Source: Circinella minor
Lineage: Eukaryota; Mucoromycota; Mucoromycetes; Mucorales; Lichtheimiaceae
Length of the DNA stretch: 64,000 bases
Reading direction: 5' to 3'
Assembly: GCA_016758965.1 (NCBI GenBank)
Contig: JAEPRB010000108.1
Coordinates: 1 to 64,000 of the forward strand
Shown here: positions 1 through 35,935 of the stretch, piece by piece
Layout of the letters: every line of letters begins with the position of its first letter
Position numbering within the stretch: position 1 is the first letter of the stretch
The notes under the pieces: generated by a model
Told to the model about the DNA's origin: nothing
What the model saw: only the letters and a program-made list of their open reading frames with translations
The model's database searches: none
Position numbers and translations under genes: made by a program

Positions 1-1151
1 AAAATAATATTCCAACCTGTAAGTCCATCTTCACCCATCTTTTCGATAACCTTCCGCAAGAATTTCTTCACGTCGTCATCTTCTAAGTCTTCGCATACTT
101 TATAAATTTGATGTAATACCTTGCTACGTGTGAATGCAACGAAAAAAACCATTGTTGTATCAAGAGGTTTGACAATCTTTTCTCGTTGGTTGATTTCTCT
201 ACCTTCTGTGATTGCTTTATTCATTCCAGCATCTCGCTTTTTCTGATCACCATATGTGCGGGTACTATCAATGTCAAATACCATCTCTCCAATAAATACA
301 CATTCTTTAGGGTTAACTCCTTTCTCGAACAAATAATGCATACAAGCATCATGAGATTGCGTGTTTTCATCCACCTCTAGTTGTTTGAATAGGATTTGAT
401 GTGAACGTAAGGTTATGCCAAAGTTTTGTTGTACATATTTTCTTAGGACATCTTTAGGAATCTTGGCATCCTTGAATTCGTTTTGGAAATGTAGATAGAT
501 TTGTTCATGCGATGCGATGCTATTGTCATCAACGTATCTACAAAGATTTCGATGCATTGCCTCGGTTATATCATGCACCTTTTTTTTTGGGCCTGGCTTT
601 CTTCTGGCAAGAGATCCAGTTTCAGCTTTCTTTGCCATACGACCGCGTAAGGTACTGTTTTTTATATTGTTGCTAGACGCAGCTTTTGAGATAGATTTGC
701 CCCTTGCCTTGTCAAGGATCGCTCTGCGAATATCTTCGTCAGAAGGTAGATTATACTTTCCCCTTTTTTTGCCTTTTCTGCTCGAATTGGTTGAACCAGG
801 TTCAATCATATTAATATCACCATCGCTATCAACTTGATTGTTGTTAAATGGGAAAAATATAAAATAATTAATCTACATATTCTCATATTGTACTCTAAAT
901 AACCAATGTGAGCTTCTTTACTATTATTATTAGTACATACCATCATTCTCTTCATCAAAATTAAGTTCACTTATGCTACGTTCAAGTGAACCAATTCCAT
1001 GCGACGATAAATTGGCCAGGGTACTAGCAGCCTCTAAATGTTCCACGGCTGATGGTGCATGCTTTTCAAAATAGTCCTCATCAATTTGCATAAACTGGGA
1101 AGCCTGACTAGGCGAGAGAGAGCGGTGAGTACGTTTGTTGTTTTGTTCCAT
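1..1151 (-). CDS. Partial Tc1/pogo-like DDE transposase with Psq-type HTH
   Basis: The gene is truncated by the left edge. Two exons are visible: 941-1151 (Met start) and <1-832, joined by a 108-nt intron (donor GTATGT, acceptor ending TCAAG) that preserves the frame, giving 347 visible residues. Residues 1-95 are acidic and Ser-rich. Residues 104-136 read as a helix-turn-helix of Psq/pogo type (SISKAAS...NSTLRGR), followed by a basic linker RRKPGPKKK. Residues 158-247 look like the N-terminal part of a Tc1/IS630-type transposase, then CVFIGEMVFDID near residue 248, where the family normally has an F-I-D-E block. Here Asp is replaced by Gly, so the first catalytic acid may be missing. The window ends just before the region where the second Asp is expected (GLTGWNII). 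The uninterrupted frame, correctly spliced intron and changed acid leave open either a recent mobile element or a domesticated copy. Confidence 0.7.
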
Positions 1152-1617
1152 TTTTATAGAGATTGTTGAAAAAGAAAAGAACTAAAGGTAAAAATAGTGA
1201 AATAAGATAAGGGAATAAAAATTAAGATAAAAAAGATAATTTTATATTATTCAATTTTATATTCTTTCATATATAATTTCCCTATTCTACGATGATGGAT
1301 TCACTTGTTTTAGTTTCAATATGTTTGATACGTGATACATTTTATCTAATATTATTATTCTTATTATTTTTATTATTGATATATGATTCTTAGTGGTATA
1401 TCGCTATTATATATTATTAAATGTTTCATTTTATATCGTTTGTTTGTTATGGTATAATAAAGAAGTAACTGATATGTTTATGTTTGACTTAGATCGGGCG
1501 TATATTAGAAGGTAAGAATATCACAGCCAGAATGGATACCACAAAGAAAGTTTAAGACAAATAGCTTTGATAATAGTGTATAGACTACGTATAGCAAATT
1601 AGTTTTTTCCTATTCAC
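1152..1617. other. AT-rich 5' flank of the transposase gene
   Basis: No gene is visible. This is AT-rich sequence between the transposase start codon and the first unit of the 22-bp array, so it probably contains the transposase promoter. No clear terminal inverted repeat was recognised. Confidence 0.5.
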
Positions 1618-2032
1618 GAAAAACCCGATCCTGTTGGTGAACAATATTCATTCCAAGTGTTAAAAATTAATGGCCAATTGTCGAATAATTCATGTACCAT
1701 GTGTGAACAATTGAATGCCCTCATGACGAATAGTGGATGTCTCACTGACGAACAACTATGTGTTTATTAACCAATAAAAATTTGGGCAGTAGTGAAAATA
1801 CAGGTGTCCTTGTGGCGAATAATTAACCTGCTCTTAAGCGAAAGTCATGATGGTCATGCATGAAAATTTTTTATTTCCAATCGCGAATAATTTACATCCC
1901 ATAAGTAAAAAATTTAGTGGCCCCAAGTGAAAACCCTACCAGCCCGAAATTCAAAAAATTACCAACCCGTAAGCAGAAGATTTGACCTCCCGTGTCGGTA
2001 ATTGGATGCAAAATCCTGTATGATAAATAAGA
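1618..2032 (+). repeat. Degenerate 22-23-bp tandem array, left segment
   Basis: About 18 consecutive units of 21-24 bp start with GAA, GAAAA or AAAAA and commonly end in a CCNNNAGT-like or CATAAGT-like tail (for example GAATAATTTACATCCCATAAGT). Units differ widely inside but keep the spacing of the A-rich head. Their orientation is the same as in the right arm of the neighbouring inverted repeat and opposite to the left arm. The last unit contains GCAAAATCCTGTA, which recurs at 3569-3581. Confidence 0.75.
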
Positions 2033-3894
2033 TTTTTCAATTATGATAAATAAGATTTTTCAATTATGAAAGAAAGGGTTTTCAATTATGAAAGATTAAA
2101 TTTTTCAGTAATAAAGGCAACGTTTTTTGGCTATGAAAGATAAGGCTTTTCAGTTATGAAAAATATGATTTTTCACTAATGCGGTGCGGAAATTTTCATA
2201 AAAAATGAATTTATTTTTGAAATATGAACTATGGAGTTTTTCGACCATAAGTGCATTAATTTTACAATTTTGAAGAGCAGAATTTTTCGTTTGTGAGAGG
2301 CCTTGTTTTTCAATGATGAGTAAACTTTATTTTCATATATGATTAGTTTATTACAGGATTTTGCGTTAATTACCACCGAAGGGAGAAAGATTTTCCAGAT
2401 ACAGGAGAATAATTTTTCATATAAGGAAATAAATTTTTCGAAATCAAGGCCGGTTTTTTTTCATAGGCGGGATTACATTTATCGTAAACGGGAGTGCCTT
2501 TTTTCGTATTTGAGGGAATTGATTTTTCAAAATTGAGCATATACAATATTCGTTGTTGGGTTACTAGTTTTTCATATATGGAGACAACGTTTTTCGCTTT
2601 TGAGACTATAGATTTTCGCAATCAAGCAAATGTAATTTTCGTAAACGAGTATTTGATAATTCATAATGGGGAATTATAGTTTTTCGAATGCGCCACAAAG
2701 ATTTTCGTTTGTGGGTCGATCAATGATCGCCATTGAGTACACTTTTTACATGTTTTTTTTTTATTTGTTTTTTTTTCTAAGTGCTAAGATATTTTTTTGT
2801 AAGAGACTAAAGAGCCTTTTCTTTCTTAAATAGCACGTCTGAATTTGAGAGGTACAACTAAGTTGAGATAGGGAATTAGAGAAAAAGTATATGAGGAAAG
2901 AGAAAAATAATAAAAGAATAATGCAAACCTGCGCCGAGGTTAAGCAAGATAATTGACAGTGCGCTAGGATATCGAGTTAATGTGCAACAGTTTCAAGGTT
3001 ACGTTTACACTCAGTGTAAAATATTTGTTCCTTCTCTTTCACTGCGTTTAACCAAAAAAAAAGGGATATTCCCCTCTGAAGTTGATAACAGAATAAAAAT
3101 GTATAACAGTGTAGCACATAATTCCCTGTACAAAGCCATGTCCCGCTCAGAGAAAAAAACAAATAAAAAAAAAACATGTAAAAAGTGTACTCAATGGCGA
3201 TCATTGATCGACCCACAAACGAAAATCTTTGTGGCGCATTCGAAAAACTATAATTCCCCATTATGAATTATCAAATACTCGTTTACGAAAATTACATTTG
3301 CTTGATTGCGAAAATCTATAGTCTCAAAAGCGAAAAACGTTGTCTCCATATATGAAAAACTAGTAACCCAACAACGAATATTGTATATGCTCAATTTTGA
3401 AAAATCAATTCCCTCAAATACGAAAAAAGGCACTCCCGTTTACGATAAATGTAATCCCGCCTATGAAAAAAAACCGGCCTTGATTTCGAAAATTTTATTT
3501 CCTTATATGAAAAATTATTCTCCTGTATCTGGAAAATCTTTCTCCCTTCGGTGGTAATTAACGCAAAATCCTGTAATAAACTAATCATATATGAAAATAA
3601 AGTTTACTCATCATTGAAAAACAAGGCCTCTCACAAACGAAAAATTCTGCTCTTCAAAATTGTAAAATTAATGCACTTATGGTCGAGAAACTCCATAGTT
3701 CATATTTCAAAAATAAATTCATTTTTTATGAAAATTTCCGCACCGCATTAGTGAAAAATCATATTTTTCATAACTGAAAAGCCTTATCTTTCATAGCCAA
3801 AAAACTTTGCCTTTATTACTGAAAAATTTAATCTTTCATAATTGAAAAACCTTTCTTTCATAATTGAAAAATCTTATTTATCATAATTGAAAAA
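2033..3894. repeat. 742-bp inverted repeat made of 22-23-bp units, 378-bp spacer
   Basis: Positions 2033-2774 and 3153-3894 are reverse complements about a centre at 2963.5. By eye only about five substitutions separate the arms (for example at the pairs 2119/3808 and 2240/3687), so identity is above 99%. Within each arm the sequence is a tandem array of diverged units of about 22-23 bp, roughly GAAAAAYYTTNNYTTTCATAAYT, in + orientation in the right arm and in - orientation in the left. The spacer 2775-3152 is unique and carries no convincing gene. The layout matches fold-back type elements: long terminal repeats built of short subrepeats. A transcript across it would form a hairpin of about 740 bp. 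Short reading frames of 60-96 codons in the arms arise from the repeat and are not genes. Confidence 0.9.
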
Positions 3895-4044
3895 CGTTTT
3901 GTTTCATAACTGAAAAGCAACTTTTTCATGACCGAAAAATCTTTCGTTTCATAACCAAAAAACAACTTTTTCACGATCGAAAAACCCTTCTTTCATAACC
4001 TAATTTTTTTTTTTTATTATTGAAAAATTTTCACTTCATCGCCA
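3895..4044 (+). repeat. Continuation of the 22-23-bp array beyond the right arm
   Basis: Six or seven more units in the same orientation as the right arm (such as GAAAAATCTTTCGTTTCATAACC) run to about 4044. They are not matched on the left side, so the array is older or longer than the inverted duplication. The last unit overlaps the end of the truncated coding fragment on the minus strand. Confidence 0.7.
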
Positions 4045-4220
4045 CTTTCAAAAGCAAAATACTGTACATATGGGACTGAGAGCTCTTTCGCCAATTCATC
4101 ACTTTTTTCTAAAAATAGTAAAAAGTCGAATTCAACATCAACCTATAAAAAAAAAAAAAATACAATTTACAATCAATAATACATTACTTACATTTATATC
4201 TCCAAATCCCCAGCATATGG
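4017..4220 (-). pseudogene. 3'-terminal fragment of an unknown gene, cut by the LINE
   Basis: On the minus strand an exon at 4017-4142 encodes 41 residues and a TAA stop (beginning VDVEFDFLLF, ending EVKIFQ). It is preceded by a 49-nt intron with good signals (GTAAGT donor at 4191, polypyrimidine tract, TATAG acceptor) and by about 30 nt of upstream exon. The upstream frame meets a stop at about 4219-4221, close to where the LINE begins. I read it as the tail of a gene interrupted or truncated by the retrotransposon. The family is not recognised, and chance splice signals cannot be excluded. Confidence 0.35.
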
Positions 4221-4231
4221 CGTACGGCTAA

Positions 4232-5485
4232 ATGACGAAGGGTAAACCCATGGAGTTGCTCGATGAAGCAACTATAAACATACTCTATCAAGATTTTGGA
4301 AAAATCAGGAAAATACTCATATGCCCAGGAACCAAAACCAAATGTAATCAAACTGGTTCGATAAGATTACATGTCACCAACAATTCTCAAAGTCCTGCGC
4401 AACCACAGTTCAGATGTTCAAAATGCAGGACAATATACAATGCACCAACTATGCAACAAATTGTACAAACCCACTCAGAAGTAGCTACCCAATCACACGA
4501 TTCTTCAATGGACCTTTTTGATGAAGTTGATCTAATTGACTCACAACCTCAACAAATGAACTATATACTACAAGAATTACAAAGTCAACGTACCCAGCTC
4601 CAACTACATACAACCCAATTTGAAGAATTAAACAAATTGCGCGAAGAACTCACCATAGCACATGATCGCATTATCGAATTAGAAAAAGTAAATCGCCAAC
4701 TCAAACAACAGTTGAAAGACCAACAATCACAAGACCAGAAGTCCCTAAATGAAGACTTCCTGCCTCTCCAAGGCACCACTACTCAACCAACACAAAACAC
4801 TACAACGAGCAGGTGGGCGCATCCTCTCCCCACACAACAGCAAAAACCATCAATCTCGCCAGCACAAAAACAACGACGCATTGAAGCAGCCGCACGACTC
4901 TTTCAACGACCATCAGCTATATATGGTTTTCAATACCTTTATTTTTTCTCTAAAGCACGAATGCCCATAGGACGTATGAGAGCCAGTCTCCGCCAATTTG
5001 GCGTAGATAACAGCTGAGTACTCGATATTCACTATCCCGCCAGACAGACCATCAGCGTATTAGTCCATAATGATTTCACAACATCTATCCTTGAATCACT
5101 TAATAAAGTGGGTATCAACCCAATTGATTTTGAACCCTTGGACCCCAAATATGTCTATGATCCAAAATACCAGGAGGACTCTCAGGAAATCCGCGCTAAT
5201 ATCGCACATGAGTTACAATGTGAACGTGCCAAGCGGGCAATTAACTATATACATGCACCAATCAAATATGCCGTCGCACGAGACTTCCAAGATAAAGGGT
5301 GGCTATCAATTGAAGACCTGAAAGCAATACTTGCAACAAAATGGAAACACCCTGACGAACATGATGACTTGATCCAAAACTTCAAACCAACTGATGATGA
5401 TGATTCACTTATGGAATATGAACTTACCAGAACGAACCGTAAACGCACCATTACAGAAAGGGGAGATTCCCCCCCTCGTGAATAA
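4232..5485 (+). pseudogene. LINE ORF1 (nucleic-acid-binding protein) with one in-frame TGA
   Basis: This is a 417-codon frame interrupted once by TGA at 5015-5017. The N-terminal part has a zinc-finger-like Cys/His pattern (ICPGTKTKC...H...CSKC, residues about 30-70) and a coiled coil (residues about 130-170, ELNKLREEL, ELEKVNRQLKQQLK). The part after the TGA stays open in the same frame through VLDIHYPARQTISVLV and ends in an acidic tail (DDDDS) and a basic stretch. That continuity shows the two pieces are one protein. ORF1 proteins of LINEs bind the element's RNA and help assemble the retrotransposition particle. ORF2 starts 93 bp downstream. The stop falls where a Trp codon would differ by one base. 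Confidence 0.75.
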
Positions 5486-5578
5486 AAACCAAAAACAACC
5501 AAATTTATTACCTGGAAAAAAAAAAACAAAACAAAACAAAAAAAAAAACACAAACAAATAAAAACAGGAATAATAATT

Positions 5579-8500
5579 ATGAGTAACAAACAAATTACTT
5601 TAACCTTATTTAATATTACAGGCCTTCGTAAGCAAGCCATCAATACCGTCATCTCATCTACACCAACGACAGATATACTCTTTCTCACAGAAACCTGGTT
5701 GCTCTCACCAAACAAGTATTACACCCACTGGACTCAACATCATACCTATGGAATACGCTCCACAACACAAACATCACGAGGACGTCTCGGCCTCTCTATT
5801 CTGGTAAACCCCCACTGCCATTATCATGTACATTTCATAACAAACAAACCCTTCCCCTACTCTTTATACACTATATCTTGTATGGTTGCAAATACCTTGA
5901 TACACTGCGTATATCTACCCCCTGAAAAAATAACACATCAATTTGCATTAGAAATAATCGAATCATTACCATTACATCACCCCAATACTAACAATACCAT
6001 TATATATTTGGAGATTTTAATGCTCGTCTTGGAGACATAACAGGTGATAATCTTTTTAATACTAGAGGATGTACATTGTACCCCTGGATAGGCAATAACT
6101 CGCTTACAATTTGGAACAAAGAAAAAGCTTATAGACAGCCAACATTTCTTCGATATGACGGAAGCAGTATTATTGACCTCTTCCTTAGTACATACTACTT
6201 AAACAATACTACAATTGACATTACTGATGGCAACACCCATGGTTCTGATCATAAAATGCTTCACTTTACCTTCGACATTGACAACAATACACCAACAAAT
6301 GCCATAAACCAATTACCACAATGACGACGCCTTTGGAAACTTAGTCAACTTAATAATGAAGAAAAACGATCCCAATACCAAGACACATTTTCCACTCACA
6401 TTACTCCAGCTACTACCCAACTCATGACTCAAATTACCGAAATATCTTTAGAAACTCCTAAGTCAACCATTACCCAATTAATTGATACATACTCTGACAA
6501 ACTGTACACTATCCTCTATAATAGTTTAGATACACTAGGAACCAAATCTAGTGGTACAGTAATTCGCACAAATTTTTGGACCACAGAATTACAAAGATTA
6601 GCCAATCATCGAGAATTTTGTTATAAAAAATGGCGCTCTGCACAGGGAATCAACAAACTGTCTTAGTGGCTAAAATTCCAACAAGCAAAAGCACGAATGC
6701 GACGAGCAATTACCAAGCGAGGACGAGAAACCTGGAAGCAGTTCTGCCAACAACTTGCAAATCATGATTACAATAAAACCACTGCAAAAATAAAAAAGAT
6801 ATGACGAAATCGCACAATTCAACCAAAATTCAGCAACCAACATGGGCCTGAGGCCGCAGCTCAAAGTATGGCAAATCATTTAAAAACAGTATATAATGGT
6901 AATTTATTATCCGATCCCGCACAAACGGCAAGGCAACCACCCCATTCAACTTCTGCCACTTCAATTACATCTATAAATACCACCTCTTTTCAAATAACAT
7001 CGCCAACTTCTGTTTTCTCTATATCGATTGAAACAATACAAGATGTCATTGGCCGCATACCAAATAACAAAGCTCCAGGAGTCGACCACCTAAGGGGTGA
7101 AATGCTAAAACCACTAACTACACCATTAGCATCTTTCCTTCATAAACTTTTTCATCTTTGCTGGATAGCTTCTTATACACCACTTGAATGGAGACTGGCA
7201 CAAGTTACACCAATTCACAAACGTGGCTCACCCAATGAACCAGGTAACTTCAGACCGATCAGCCTCATATCAATACTATGAAAAATATTAGAATACTGTT
7301 TACACGACCTCTTGCACGAGTCAAGCCCTCCACTCGATATAGCTCAAGGCGGGTTCCGACCAGCATGCAGTTCACATGACCAAGTCTTATGTTTACAAGA
7401 ACTCTGCCGTCAACATAAGCTAACACACCGTTGGAAAGCGCCAACATTGGCTTTTTTGGACATTCGATCGGCGTATGATACAGTTAATCGTGATATCATC
7501 TGGAATATCCTTCGTCATACAACACCAACACCCCTCTTATTATTAGTACAAAATCTTTTTAATAATGTAATGATTGAAGTAATAATCGATAATGCTATAT
7601 CTCATCGTTTTTCCCCAATAACAGGAGTACTACAAGGCTCTATTTTATCCCCCTTTTTATATTCTATCTATATAAATAGTTTACCTAGCTTGCTCAGGAA
7701 TGGAAGGTCCATACAAAACTCAAATGATCAAACTACCTCCCAGGATGACGACTTTCAACCAACAATCGAGCAACAGCAACCACAACAGGACCAACATAAC
7801 CACACCATTCCAATCTCACAAATAAATTGTCTTCTCTATGCTGATGATATTGCATTAGTTGGAACGGCGGCTGAAATAACAGACCTCTTAATATTATGTG
7901 AAGAATATAGCTATGAGGTTGGTTTCCGCTGGAACCCTCTCAAATGTGTCATAGTACAAAACCCACGATCATCAACAAGCTTTTAACTATATGAGACACC
8001 AATACCAACACAAAAAAAATTTACATACCTAGGAGTCCCAATTAACTATAGTGGCAACATTGACAACAAACAACTAATAAAAAAGAATGCAGCGTCAGCC
8101 GAGACCAGCATGTATGTACTCTCCTCAATAGGCCTTAACCCTTCTGGGCTACCCCACCTCCTTTCTACTCAACTTTATTCACAATTCATCAGGCCAAAAC
8201 TAGAATACGGCCTAGCCATCACAACGCTTACCACCACCAACATCAAACTACTAGAACAATCACAAAATAAATGTATTCGAATGATATTTGGAGCACACAA
8301 AAACTCAGAAACAAAAGTCATGAGACACATTACGAATCTACCAAGCATGCATGAACGTACTAATATCCTTCAAGCAAAATATGTATACCGAGAACAACTC
8401 CTTCCTGAGGACACCCTAATCAAGCTACTCAAAAATCAGTTTCTACAACAACCATCAACTAGTCATTGGAACAAATTATGCCAGTCTTCCATATGGCAAC

Positions 8501-9069
8501 TTATACAACAGCACACAGCAGCACCTTTGCCAACTGATCTTAAATCAGCAATAAGACAACATAAAAATAATAATCTTTCTTCCAAAAGGGCTGCACTCAG
8601 TGGATCCAAAACTCTTGCAGCTTATCGCACCACATTAGGAATCGACCCCATAATGTGGCTTCCAATGACAAGGAAGGAGCGAAGCCGTTGTATACGTTGG
8701 AGAATCGGCTGGCTCCCTGGTGGCAAACCAAAAACGTGCATGACATGCTTATCATCACAGTTCACCAAACAACATTCAATACACTGCCTCCAAATGCATA
8801 AACGCCTTAAAATGCACATCACCAAAACTGATGATCCTCTATCTTATATTCTTAATCGCCTGCCAAAAAGTAAACCATCTTCTGCATCAAGGATCCAAAG
8901 GCTAAAAGTCTTATGGCCAGTAGTATGTACAATCTTAGCCAAATTAGACGCTCATCAACATCCAACATCCACCCAACAGCAATATCAAGACGAAAATCCT
9001 GGTCAAGCATTACTAACATGGATTGATCCTCCTCCTCCTCCTCCTGAGCTTCCTAGGTACGAAACTTAA
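5579..9069 (+). pseudogene. LINE ORF2: endonuclease + reverse transcriptase, broken
   Basis: The endonuclease part begins at ATG 5579 (LFNITGLR, ETWL, YLPP). After a one-base frameshift near 5990-6001 it continues in the next frame with GDFNARLGD and THGSDHKMLHF. The reverse transcriptase shows NKAPGVDHLRGEML, FRPISLIS, LAFLDIRSAYD, GVLQGSILSP and the YADD active site at 7837-7848. The C-terminus has RIGWLPGGKP and a zinc knuckle CMTC...H...C...H at about 8740-8795. In-frame stops lie at 6322 (TGA), 6664 (TAG), 6802 (TGA), 7279 (TGA) and 7984 (TAA). All downstream pieces stay in one frame, so decay is by point mutation and is recent. The intact protein would nick the target DNA and prime cDNA synthesis there. 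Confidence 0.85.
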
Positions 9070-9385
9070 ATCCGCCACCACTTACAGAATACACTCACCG
9101 ATCGTTTAATAATAGTAATAATAATATTAAAAAAAAAAAAAAAAAAAAAACTTCCCCTCCCCTTCCCAAAATAAGAACGCACCTGCCCATAGCAAACTTT
9201 TAACACCTATTTTTCTGAACTTACTCAATCCCTCTCTAGTACCTCTTACTTTATTCCTCTGTCTTTTTCCCTGACATCCCAACAGGGTTTTTCTTTTTTA
9301 TTCATATACGTGTATGAGCTGTCTCAAACAAATATGCCAAACCTGGCGCTGTGTTTAACAGGAGACATTAAATAAAATAACAAAT

Positions 9386-11146
9386 TTTAACCATACATAT
9401 GGGACTTAATACCCTTAACTATGGATGTAATATTAACCGACGGGATTTAAAATATTTTTAATTTTGGACAAATGATGGTTTAAGTCAGAATGCACCATAT
9501 TTATATGAATCTTATTATCGGTGGGATATATATTGATATGTGTATATAGCTATATGTAAGATTTAAATTTGTCATGGTCGTGTGAATTATGAATATAAGA
9601 TTAATGATATTAAGATTAGACTTTGAGCGGTTGATGATATGATATATCTATGCAGCTGTTATCTGTTATCATTATAGAAGACGGACTTCTGTGTTCTTAC
9701 AAATCATGGTCCAAATAGGGAAGTACACGAAATGTCAGCAAAGCATAATTAAAAATACACTGTACTTTAATAATTAAAATGACAAATAATTATCTTTATG
9801 AATAATATGTGTTGGGTACAACAATGACTTTAATTTTCTGGGCAAGATAGATACTTTATAACTATAATAATGACTTTCAGTAAGATATCGCCCTTGACTA
9901 AACATTTTTTTTAGGCTTTTTTGAACGACCCATTATTATTAAAAAAAAATAAAGAAAGTAATGAAAAGAAACACCCATATGCAGTTATTTAAGGGCAACA
10001 ATCAATGTTATTATTTGTTTGCTTTGCTTCTTATGCAAATTTTTCTCCGTACTTTAACTAACAATTTCAGCCAATGGCAATAGCCAAATTCTTTAATTCC
10101 GCACATTAACTTTTACTTCCGCACATTAACGACTGGCTGTGATTGCACGAAAAACCCTGAGGCACCGACTAACAACAGCCAAAAAGTTATATACATATAC
10201 GGAATCTCGGATATATACTTTTCCGCGGTGCTTAAAAAATTACAAAATTTCGAACAAAATAAATTTTTAACGGTTATAAGCAGTATGCACCATAGCCATC
10301 AACCCCCTGCTGTGACACATATACCCCAATTATCTTTTTATTCTTCCCAGATGATATAAATAACTGATGTGTGTATTATGTGGCATTATTACTTTTTTTC
10401 GTGTTTACAAAGACGGCTATTGCAGCTCTGTGCTTTCCTCAAAAAAAATATTAAAAAATAGTAAATCTGCCCCAGGAATATTACTAGGGCCCCGATTTTT
10501 GTAGCCCATGTAGTCATCCTCTTGTCTAATTTCAATAAATTTTGACACACGCTCTCCCCCTTATAAAATAAAATAAAAAAAGCAAAATTGAAAACTGTAT
10601 TACCTAAAGACACTAATGATCACTAGGTGCGACATTATGTACCATTTTTTTTTTTAAAAAAAAAAAAAGGAAAAGCTAGTATTATATTGTTACTGTATAT
10701 TTCATACGAAAGCTACATCTACAAATTTTCCATTTTTTTGTGTTTTATAAATTTAGTGATAAGTATAATATGTGAAGGTTTAAAGATAGTAGTAATAACA
10801 GGGTGTTGAATTTATGAGGCGATTAAGACGTAAAAGAAATTCATTGATAAATCCCTTGACGTGACCATTTAATAAACTTTTTCTTCTTTCCTTTAACAAA
10901 AGTAAAACATTGACTGACTCGTATTCTCGTAATAAACAAAACCAATTTTGATATATAGTCGAAACAAGAACAAGCGACAAAAAAAAAGTTTTTTTTATAT
11001 ATTTAAATGTTGTGTGAACAGTAAAAAAGAAGGGGGAATATATTGAATAAAAAGAAAAATAAAAAAACTTATTAAATTACTACTATTTTCTATTTGTATT
11101 AAATAAAATCTTGTAAAGATTAAAAAAGATAAAGAATTTTTTATTT
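9386..11146. other. AT-rich gene-free stretch
   Basis: No gene is recognised. It contains long A/T runs and one direct repeat of 14 bp (TTCCGCACATTAAC, two copies 21 bp apart at about 10097-10131). A GAAAAACCC unit near 10149 resembles a head of the 22-bp array. The right end is the 3' flank of the myosin gene. Confidence 0.5.
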
Positions 11147-35002: not shown

Positions 35003-35935
35003 CTACTTGGTATTATTATATGCTTCTGGACCATCTGCTGGTAATCCAGCCTTCTCCCGGTCATCTGAACTCATACTACCTGGTTCACCATCTTGGCCTG
35101 GCTGGCCTGGCTGGCCTGGTTGGCCTGGTTGACCTGGTTGACCTGGTTGGCCCGGTTGACCTGGTTGACCTGGTTGGCCCGGTTGGCCTGGCTGGCCTGG
35201 CTGACCTGGTTCTCCGTCTTGACCTGGCTGACCCGGCTGCCCTGGTTGACCTGGTTGACCTGGCTCGCCATCAGTAGATGAACTGCTTTTTGTATTTTGC
35301 TGACCAGACAAAATAGGCGGAATCACACTACCCAAGCCAACACCACCACGTTTTTTTAAATGCTTAGCTGAAGTATTCCCTTTTTCTGGTTTTATTGGAT
35401 CTGAAGAATGAGGCGGTAAATTAGTACCTTCACTTTCTTTTGTTGTTGTAGCCGACGATTTACTAGGAGCAGAATCTTTTTGTTGTTGTGAATGCGTATT
35501 GGCACTCTCCATTATTTCATCCACTTGAACTCCTACTTTTGTAAGTTCACTAACACTACTCATTCCAACACCTCCAAGACCAAATCCAACAGTAGTAATT
35601 GTATCTCCAAATCCAACATCTTTTGGCTTTTTCTGTTGTTGTCGTTTAGCATGAGCAGCCAATGTATGAACTCGATTTTGTCCTTGAGAAATACCAGATA
35701 ATTCACGTCGTTTTAATGTAGAAGAGCCGTCTGAAAAAGCGAGAGGACCATTTGAATTACTGTGAAGAGCTGGTCCGGATTTTTGAACAGTACCAATACG
35801 AAAAGCAGGTGTCCCTGTAGTCGTAGTACGTTTTGAATATTGAGCTTGATTATGTATGGCATTTTGTTCAATACCCAATACAGGCGATGTAATAGCACAA
35901 ATGGCTATAGCGGTCGTAATAACTGAAAGTTTCAT
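35003..35935 (-). CDS. Secreted collagen-like protein with Kex2-type sites
   Basis: A single exon encodes 310 residues. Residues 1-21 are a signal peptide ([21 protein letters not shown]). Four dibasic sites (SKR, LKRR, AKR, LKKR) punctuate the N-terminal 200 residues, as in fungal pro-proteins cut by Kex2 in the Golgi. The C-terminal third has 21 uninterrupted Gly-X-Y triplets, nearly all GQP with GEP and GQD at the ends and near one third of the way. It then ends in a short hydrophilic tail ([12 protein letters not shown]). Pro occupies the Y position, where prolyl hydroxylation occurs in animal collagens. The likely location is cell wall or medium. The collagen tract would allow trimerisation or adhesion; this is inference. 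No membrane anchor or GPI signal is visible. Confidence 0.85.
35078..35269 (-). repeat. 9-bp coding minisatellite (Gly-X-Y tract)
   Basis: Twenty-one tandem 9-bp units inside the collagen-like gene, mostly GGTCAACCA/GGCCAACCA-type on the coding strand. High similarity among units suggests copy number can change by slippage in steps that keep the reading frame. Confidence 0.85.

Follow-up and report, generated by a model that had tools for sequence, protein, structure and literature searches.

Nested Tc1/mariner-type transposons with long unit-array ends, and a catalytically degenerate transposase paralogue, in Circinella minor

At the start of a contig of Circinella minor, a member of the Mucoromycota, two long and near-identical stretches of DNA face each other in inverted orientation. 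Do they form one mobile element, or are several elements packed together? We analysed the first 64,000 bases (the window) of contig JAEPRB010000108.1 (C108; 129,786 bases) against the rest of the 46.6 Mb genome, which is assembled in 619 contigs, each designated here by C and its number. A preliminary description, which had placed the host in the Mucoromycota from the sequence alone, took the structure for a single fold-back element of the Drosophila FB and plant Foldback type at 2033–3894, possibly non-autonomous and mobilized by a transposase such as the one encoded at 1–1151. What the sequence supports is a nest of three related Tc1/mariner-type transposons: element A lies between two ends of element B, element A2 lies inside a B end, and a long interspersed nuclear element (LINE) sits at the B edge. 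The full reading, which joins this nest and its LINE to a group of two-gene relatives, casts the second open reading frame (ORF2) of these relatives as a non-cutting partner or regulator and derives the palindrome from conversion and deletion, is in our judgement probable.

Composition of the inverted repeat

BLASTN self-comparison pairs 2019–2781 with 3908–3146 in inverted orientation (763 bp, 98.6% identity, E 0.0), and a repeat-finding run gave the same pair. The gap-free core, 2044–2781 against 3146–3883, holds 6 mismatches in 738 bp, three of them up to and including right-arm position 3575 and three past it; 2021–2043 is one additional 23-bp unit present in the left arm only. The near-identical arms that had been described therefore exist, and so does their fabric of diverged 22–23-bp units. 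In the inner part of the arm identity autocorrelation is highest at lag 22, where it reaches 0.43 against a 99th percentile of 0.37 among shuffles; the outer part peaks at lags 23 and 45 (0.50, against 0.38 in shuffles). Both autocorrelation and anchoring of the units bear out long terminal repeats composed of short subrepeats. Rfam gave no RNA family match in 1200–4300 up to E 0.1.

The two parts of each arm have different distributions in the genome. With 2019–4040 as query we obtained at least 79 matches, and mapping the other loci back onto the window places a switch of arm identity at 2351/3576. Matches to the inner part (C465, C445, C470, C569, both ends of C359, C432, C411, C166 and C116) stop at or near this point, the one on C116 running on for some 30 bp at 81%; matches to the outer part lie on C382, C338, C402 and C435, and on the first three of these they go on inward into different sequence. 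The flanks of the A-type ends at other loci appear unrelated, as judged by eye; the C411 terminus lacks its last bases and the left ends on C465 and C116 are degenerate. Among the matches, the joined inner and outer arm was seen at no other locus. Since the pieces occur apart, each with its own terminus and differing flanks, we assign the inner piece to element A (2352–3575) and the outer piece to the end of element B; and since A is situated between two B pieces, the arms are composite, each made up of an A terminal repeat (430 bp) and part of a B terminal repeat. On sequence grounds, then, the inverted repeat is not one fold-back element. The preliminary description had also foreseen further copies in the genome, and named as its own counter-case units confined to this locus and free of any mobility signature; the genome-wide search returned the copies and not the counter-case.

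Element A itself (termini TACAGGATTTTGC and GCAAAATCCTGTA, one TA included at each end) has a left terminal inverted repeat at 2352–2781 (forward strand), a 430-bp unit array that is 99.3% identical to the right repeat at 3146–3575 (forward strand). It contains no ORF of at least 120 amino acids, in keeping with the non-autonomous status first proposed for the structure. Its ends are 86–90% alike to those of dispersed relatives on C359 and C445. The relative at C359:3031–7953 is whole, with 441-bp terminal repeats that are 97.7% alike and two convergent genes, ORF1 and ORF2; window A thus has terminal inverted repeats in common with an autonomous element, a Tc1/mariner trait. Between its ends (2782–3145) it retains parts of both 5′ regions, that of ORF2 at 2970–3040 and that of ORF1 at 3056–3145, and neither gene; the left end is the ORF2-side and the right end the ORF1-side one. 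The same gene-less structure recurs, with small differences, on C465 and C116, and window A reads as an internally deleted, non-autonomous derivative. One piece of the A spacer, 2792–2911, has 73–84% similar stretches on C168, C156, C210 and C24, with no A ends in the stretches compared.

Nesting, target sites and the palindrome

The right B terminal repeat (3576–4066, forward strand) comprises the outer 491 bp and ends with GCAAAATACTGTA at 4066. B ends on C382 (94% alike) and C338 (85%) terminate at the same base as window B, with different flanks, and the sequence downstream of this terminus differs among C382, C338 and C435. The left B terminal repeat (2021–2351, reverse strand) is inverted, consists of the inner part and is 98% identical to 3576–3908; its outer part would be found on C435, beyond A2. 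The ORF2-side end of A2 fills 1–2020 (forward strand), the remainder lying beyond the contig start, with a terminal unit array at 1580–2020 (forward strand). The stretch 1150–2020 has 44 matches across the genome, and the terminus at 2020 (GATGCAAAATCCTGTA, whose last TA is the target TA) is common to copies on C471, C398, C542, C579, C217 and C414, each with a flank of its own. On the reverse strand A2 carries the main exon of an ORF2 gene (3–872), truncated by the contig start, in which G replaces the first catalytic Asp, and a probable first exon (942–1151), read as open from its ATG for 70 amino acids, with putative borders. A related transposase gene does adjoin the inverted repeat as had been noticed, but it belongs to the third element, and since it is a catalytically degenerate ORF2, cutting is unlikely to be done by its product.

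The insertion of A2 into B is read from two contigs. C435:1–381 consists of the A2 terminal repeat (1 mismatch in 202 bp), TA and B 3884–4066 (C435:201–381), followed by a flank that differs from the right-hand flank of window B; on the window side the A2 terminus is followed by TA and then by inverted B from the same point inward. If these are two sides of one A2 insertion, together they would restore B around the TA at 3884–3885, bar one extra 23-bp unit. TA is also found at the junction in the B copies on C382, C338 and C402 where window A is inserted. A third site is the gene interrupted by A on C432: of five uninterrupted copies the closest match, on C284, has TA at the junction (TATAGTG). 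Two points weigh against this part of our reading. C435 and C108 are physically unlinked in the assembly, which makes the A2-in-B insertion an argument from sequence, and four of the five intact copies of the C432 gene read TATGGTG, with TG at the junction. The C432 site alone is thus no proof, but with these provisos TA is duplicated on insertion, and a TA target fits Tc1/mariner.

How did two inverted B pieces come to lie on either side of A? With A and one TA removed, the joined B flanks read as a perfect palindrome around a central TA over the 54 bp checked. The B copies on C382, where ORFs resemble the start of ORF1 by eye, and on C338, which carries ORF2, are 91% alike over 763 bp, and their terminal repeat extends some 270 bp further inward than the window piece, so the two B repeats of the window break off next to A at an identical position. 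We suggest that A may have integrated at a TA in one B repeat, from which gene conversion between the repeats would have carried it into the second, and that the stretch of B separating the two A copies would then have been lost, or skipped by the assembler; either course explains the common cut.

Three other histories can be set against this one. A single fold-back element at 2033–3894 with 742-bp arms would account for arms that run unbroken through 2351/3576 at 99% identity, with about as many mismatches in one part as in the other, but since both parts are found separately with their own termini, and the joined arm at no other matched locus, we consider it very improbable. Assembly collapse is a more serious contender, if still an unlikely one: an A copy in each B repeat would have been fused by the assembler and the B interior dropped. 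The A and B repeats are indeed both long and nearly identical, many contigs break off in repeats of this kind (C435, C382, C338, C470, C569), and the cut at one and the same base in both B repeats is what collapse could produce; yet the inner B repeat was located at three loci and beside an A end at none of them, so nothing left over from such an arrangement came to light. Less likely again is that B was a perfect palindrome to begin with and A inserted at its central TA. The palindrome that remains when A and one TA are taken out speaks for this history, but both repeats must first have lost an identical inner part, the ~270 bp still present on C382 and C338, and long palindromes are unstable.

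The LINE (4078–9393, forward strand; 5.3 kb) lies at the right B end, outside A and B. It encodes a reverse transcriptase domain (RVT_1, 1.7e-19), contains several in-frame breaks and is flanked by 13-bp copies of TACATATGGGACT at 4065–4077 and 9394–9406 (both forward strand), a word length shared by none of 500 shuffles of the 60-bp flanks. This duplication, together with B copies whose end precedes other sequence, rules out that the array is the promoter or 5′ part of the LINE. Pericentromeric LINEs of Mucor (Grem-LINE1) are known in the same group, and a LINE beside repeats recalls the mosaic centromere of Mucor as outlined in PMC9089191 and PMC7377519; we dropped the idea of a centromere because the repeats are dispersed transposon ends, and no search for the Mucor centromere motif was made.

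The two-gene group and its unit arrays

ORF1 of C359 encodes 463 amino acids, with an apparent further exon upstream; it has a DDE_3 match (4.7e-17) and 34 residues between its second D and the E, the spacing of IS630/Tc1-type enzymes; by these motifs ORF1 is a DD34E Tc1/mariner transposase. A Protein Data Bank sequence search with the ORF1 alignment gave no match at E 0.001. ORF2 of C359 is frameshifted, with HTH_psq (2.4e-7) in one piece and DDE_3 in the other (2.6e-4, below the Pfam cut-off). In the window, Pfam alone shows nothing above its cut-off for the A2 ORF2 fragment, which is 90% identical over 300 amino acids to the complete ORF2 of C471.

We aligned the catalytic columns of 10 of the 14 listed ORF2 proteins (fragments P0011–P0014 left out) and of the genome copies, some rows being one copy counted twice (P0001 and C411). 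The first Asp is present in none of 18 rows and the Glu in none of 15. In the tree ORF2 forms a single clade on a long stem (1.78), while row P0032, labelled as outgroup, clusters with A2-type ORF1. The ratio of nonsynonymous to synonymous substitution rates (dN/dS) for ORF2 is 0.21–0.38, and unbroken frames of 390 amino acids persist at C445, C432 and C411. The sequences support ORF2 as a transposase paralogue of single origin that has lost the catalytic triad and is under purifying selection. Its possible DNA-binding parts are the HTH_psq match and helix-turn-helix-like helices predicted in a structure model; a Protein Data Bank sequence search with ORF2 gave two weak matches (E 0.013 and 0.06).

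Genome protein searches, in which 92 of 179 ORF1 candidates were scored, gave eleven loci at which ORF1 is matched over 200 amino acids or more with an identity of 44% or higher. Nine have a convergent ORF2 beside ORF1 (C359, C445, C432, C398, C471, C411, C557, C282 and C619). ORF2 occurs without ORF1 at the end of a contig in three cases (the window, C470 and C338) and also on C542. Beyond this genome, ORF2 relatives are found in Circinella umbellata (P0003, P0004, P0012) and in ena and lgn records (P0005, P0007, P0009, P0010, P0011, P0013). P0005 and the ORF1 protein P0024 come from contigs of equal length (4,935 bases), as do P0007 and P0027 (4,294 bases), which suggests further ORF2/ORF1 pairs. 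Distant ORF1 relatives include Rhizopus proteins; the ORF2 profile search had no Rhizopus protein among the matches listed.

A 22–23-bp period rises above shuffles in eight of the eleven stretches examined (A, A2, B, C359, C398, one C282 end, one C619 end). Rough anchoring gives 14 units in A (right repeat), 12 in A2, 13 in B (right repeat), 21 in C282 and 5 in C619. Array-type ends therefore characterize several families of the group, and not the window locus alone.

Other structures were met at or near these genes. An A copy has an inverted repeat of 528 bp (98.7% alike) between its ORF1 and its ORF2, at C411:4548–6488. In an A2 copy the two genes enclose a further, nested Tc1-like element at C471:15762–17642, with inverted repeats of ~168 bp and TACAGGATTTTTCC ends. 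At C408:13455–17382 an ORF1-like gene is followed on the same strand by a protein weakly like ORF1 and ORF2, perhaps another two-gene arrangement. Elsewhere in the window, 35078–35263 is a tandem array of 20.7 copies of a 9-bp unit, ACCTGGTTG, which is perhaps coding since the unit length is divisible by three.

A proposed role for ORF2, and known systems

The likeliest role for ORF2 is that of a partner or regulator which does not cut and would bind the unit arrays. ORF1, ORF2 or both may recognize the 22–23-bp units; many subunits would load at each end, the ends would then pair, and ORF1 would cut at TA, with ORF2 aiding the pairing or limiting activity. The same binding could regulate both genes, because each begins directly inward of a terminal array. 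Window A and other deleted copies may move in trans, as presence of the deleted form at three sites (window, C465, C116) suggests. Taken further, a Tc1/mariner lineage may have turned two-subunit, an ancient dead duplicate of the transposase being kept as a dedicated DNA-binding partner and co-evolving with long arrays that stand in for the one or two sites normally present at each end; we put this forward tentatively, as slightly short of an even prospect.

ORF2 could instead be mainly a repressor, competing with ORF1 for the arrays rather than helping it. Competitors typically take this form, a site-dead paralogue with its DNA-binding helices retained, and the start of both genes just inside an array suits such control; the present evidence does not separate helper from repressor, and we regard a chiefly repressive ORF2 as possible but less likely than not. 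That ORF2 is merely a decaying duplicate with no role is improbable: its catalytic residues are gone and several copies contain stops, but the single clade, the unbroken frames, the low dN/dS and the relatives in Circinella umbellata and other records are against decay.

A partner or regulator role for ORF2 in a two-gene group has difficulties of its own. The unit period is missing from three of the eleven stretches (C282:33400–34200, C557:2700–3800 and C619:1–700), which may not reach element ends. C515 and C579 carry ORF1 with no ORF2 match in the protein searches of the genome, and pairing was scored for about half of the ORF1 candidates, as given above. The ORF1 copies of C619, C432 and C557 each lack one catalytic residue, stops interrupt several ORF2 copies, and the ORF2 structure model is of middling confidence (pLDDT, the predicted local distance difference test, 61.4).

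Among known systems, the kinship to fold-back elements suggested in the preliminary description holds for the repeat architecture but not for the superfamily, which the DD34E relatives and TA insertion sites place in Tc1/mariner. Foldback elements have a target duplication longer than TA, unlike the TA at the junctions here. Tc4 of Caenorhabditis elegans is a fold-back element with kinship to Tc1/mariner; its target duplication is TNA rather than TA, and we know of neither an array of 22–23-bp units nor a second gene in it. In the proposed two-protein mode the present elements would work much like the TnpA/TnpD pair of CACTA elements, another superfamily, in which a non-cutting protein occupies many short subterminal sites beside a cutting enzyme; to our knowledge TnpA is not a dead copy of the transposase. 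SETMAR/Metnase, which is among the structure matches, likewise has a mariner transposase domain with an altered triad, but it is a host fusion gene that keeps the domain for another use and is not transposon-borne.

Galileo, a Foldback-like element of Drosophila, shares with our elements long terminal repeats of short tandem subrepeats and, as summarized in PMC3688188, these hold several transposase binding sites, a precedent for many sites in long repetitive ends. The same summary places Galileo in the P-element superfamily, whereas the relatives here encode a Tc1-type DDE_3 protein. Closer by is Tc1-MP1 of the Mucoraceae and Rhizopodaceae, for which PMC9977792 gives 1,688 bp, one ORF of 434 amino acids and 141-bp repeats, and names a homologue in Circinella minor. 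Both are of Tc1 type, with DD34E and terminal inverted repeats, in Mucorales; set against that description, the present elements are of ~4.9 kb, with two convergent genes and repeats of 430–490 bp or longer built from 22–23-bp units (441 bp in C359). In the related pogo superfamily, PMC7386202 describes elements with two ORFs that reach 5.2 kb, and it speaks of one ORF or two, coding for transposases. In the literature searched, which held few subscription journals, no publication title referred to a two-gene Tc1 group with a dead paralogue.

In the classical model, as set out in PMC9977792, one Tc1 transposon encodes one transposase. A site-dead copy kept under selection inside a transposon would show how an element with one protein can acquire a structural subunit or a regulator, and with the array ends it becomes testable whether many-site ends depend on ORF2. 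The elements also point to a separate origin of fold-back-like ends within Tc1/mariner, and the locus is a worked case of related elements nesting in one another's AT-rich ends.
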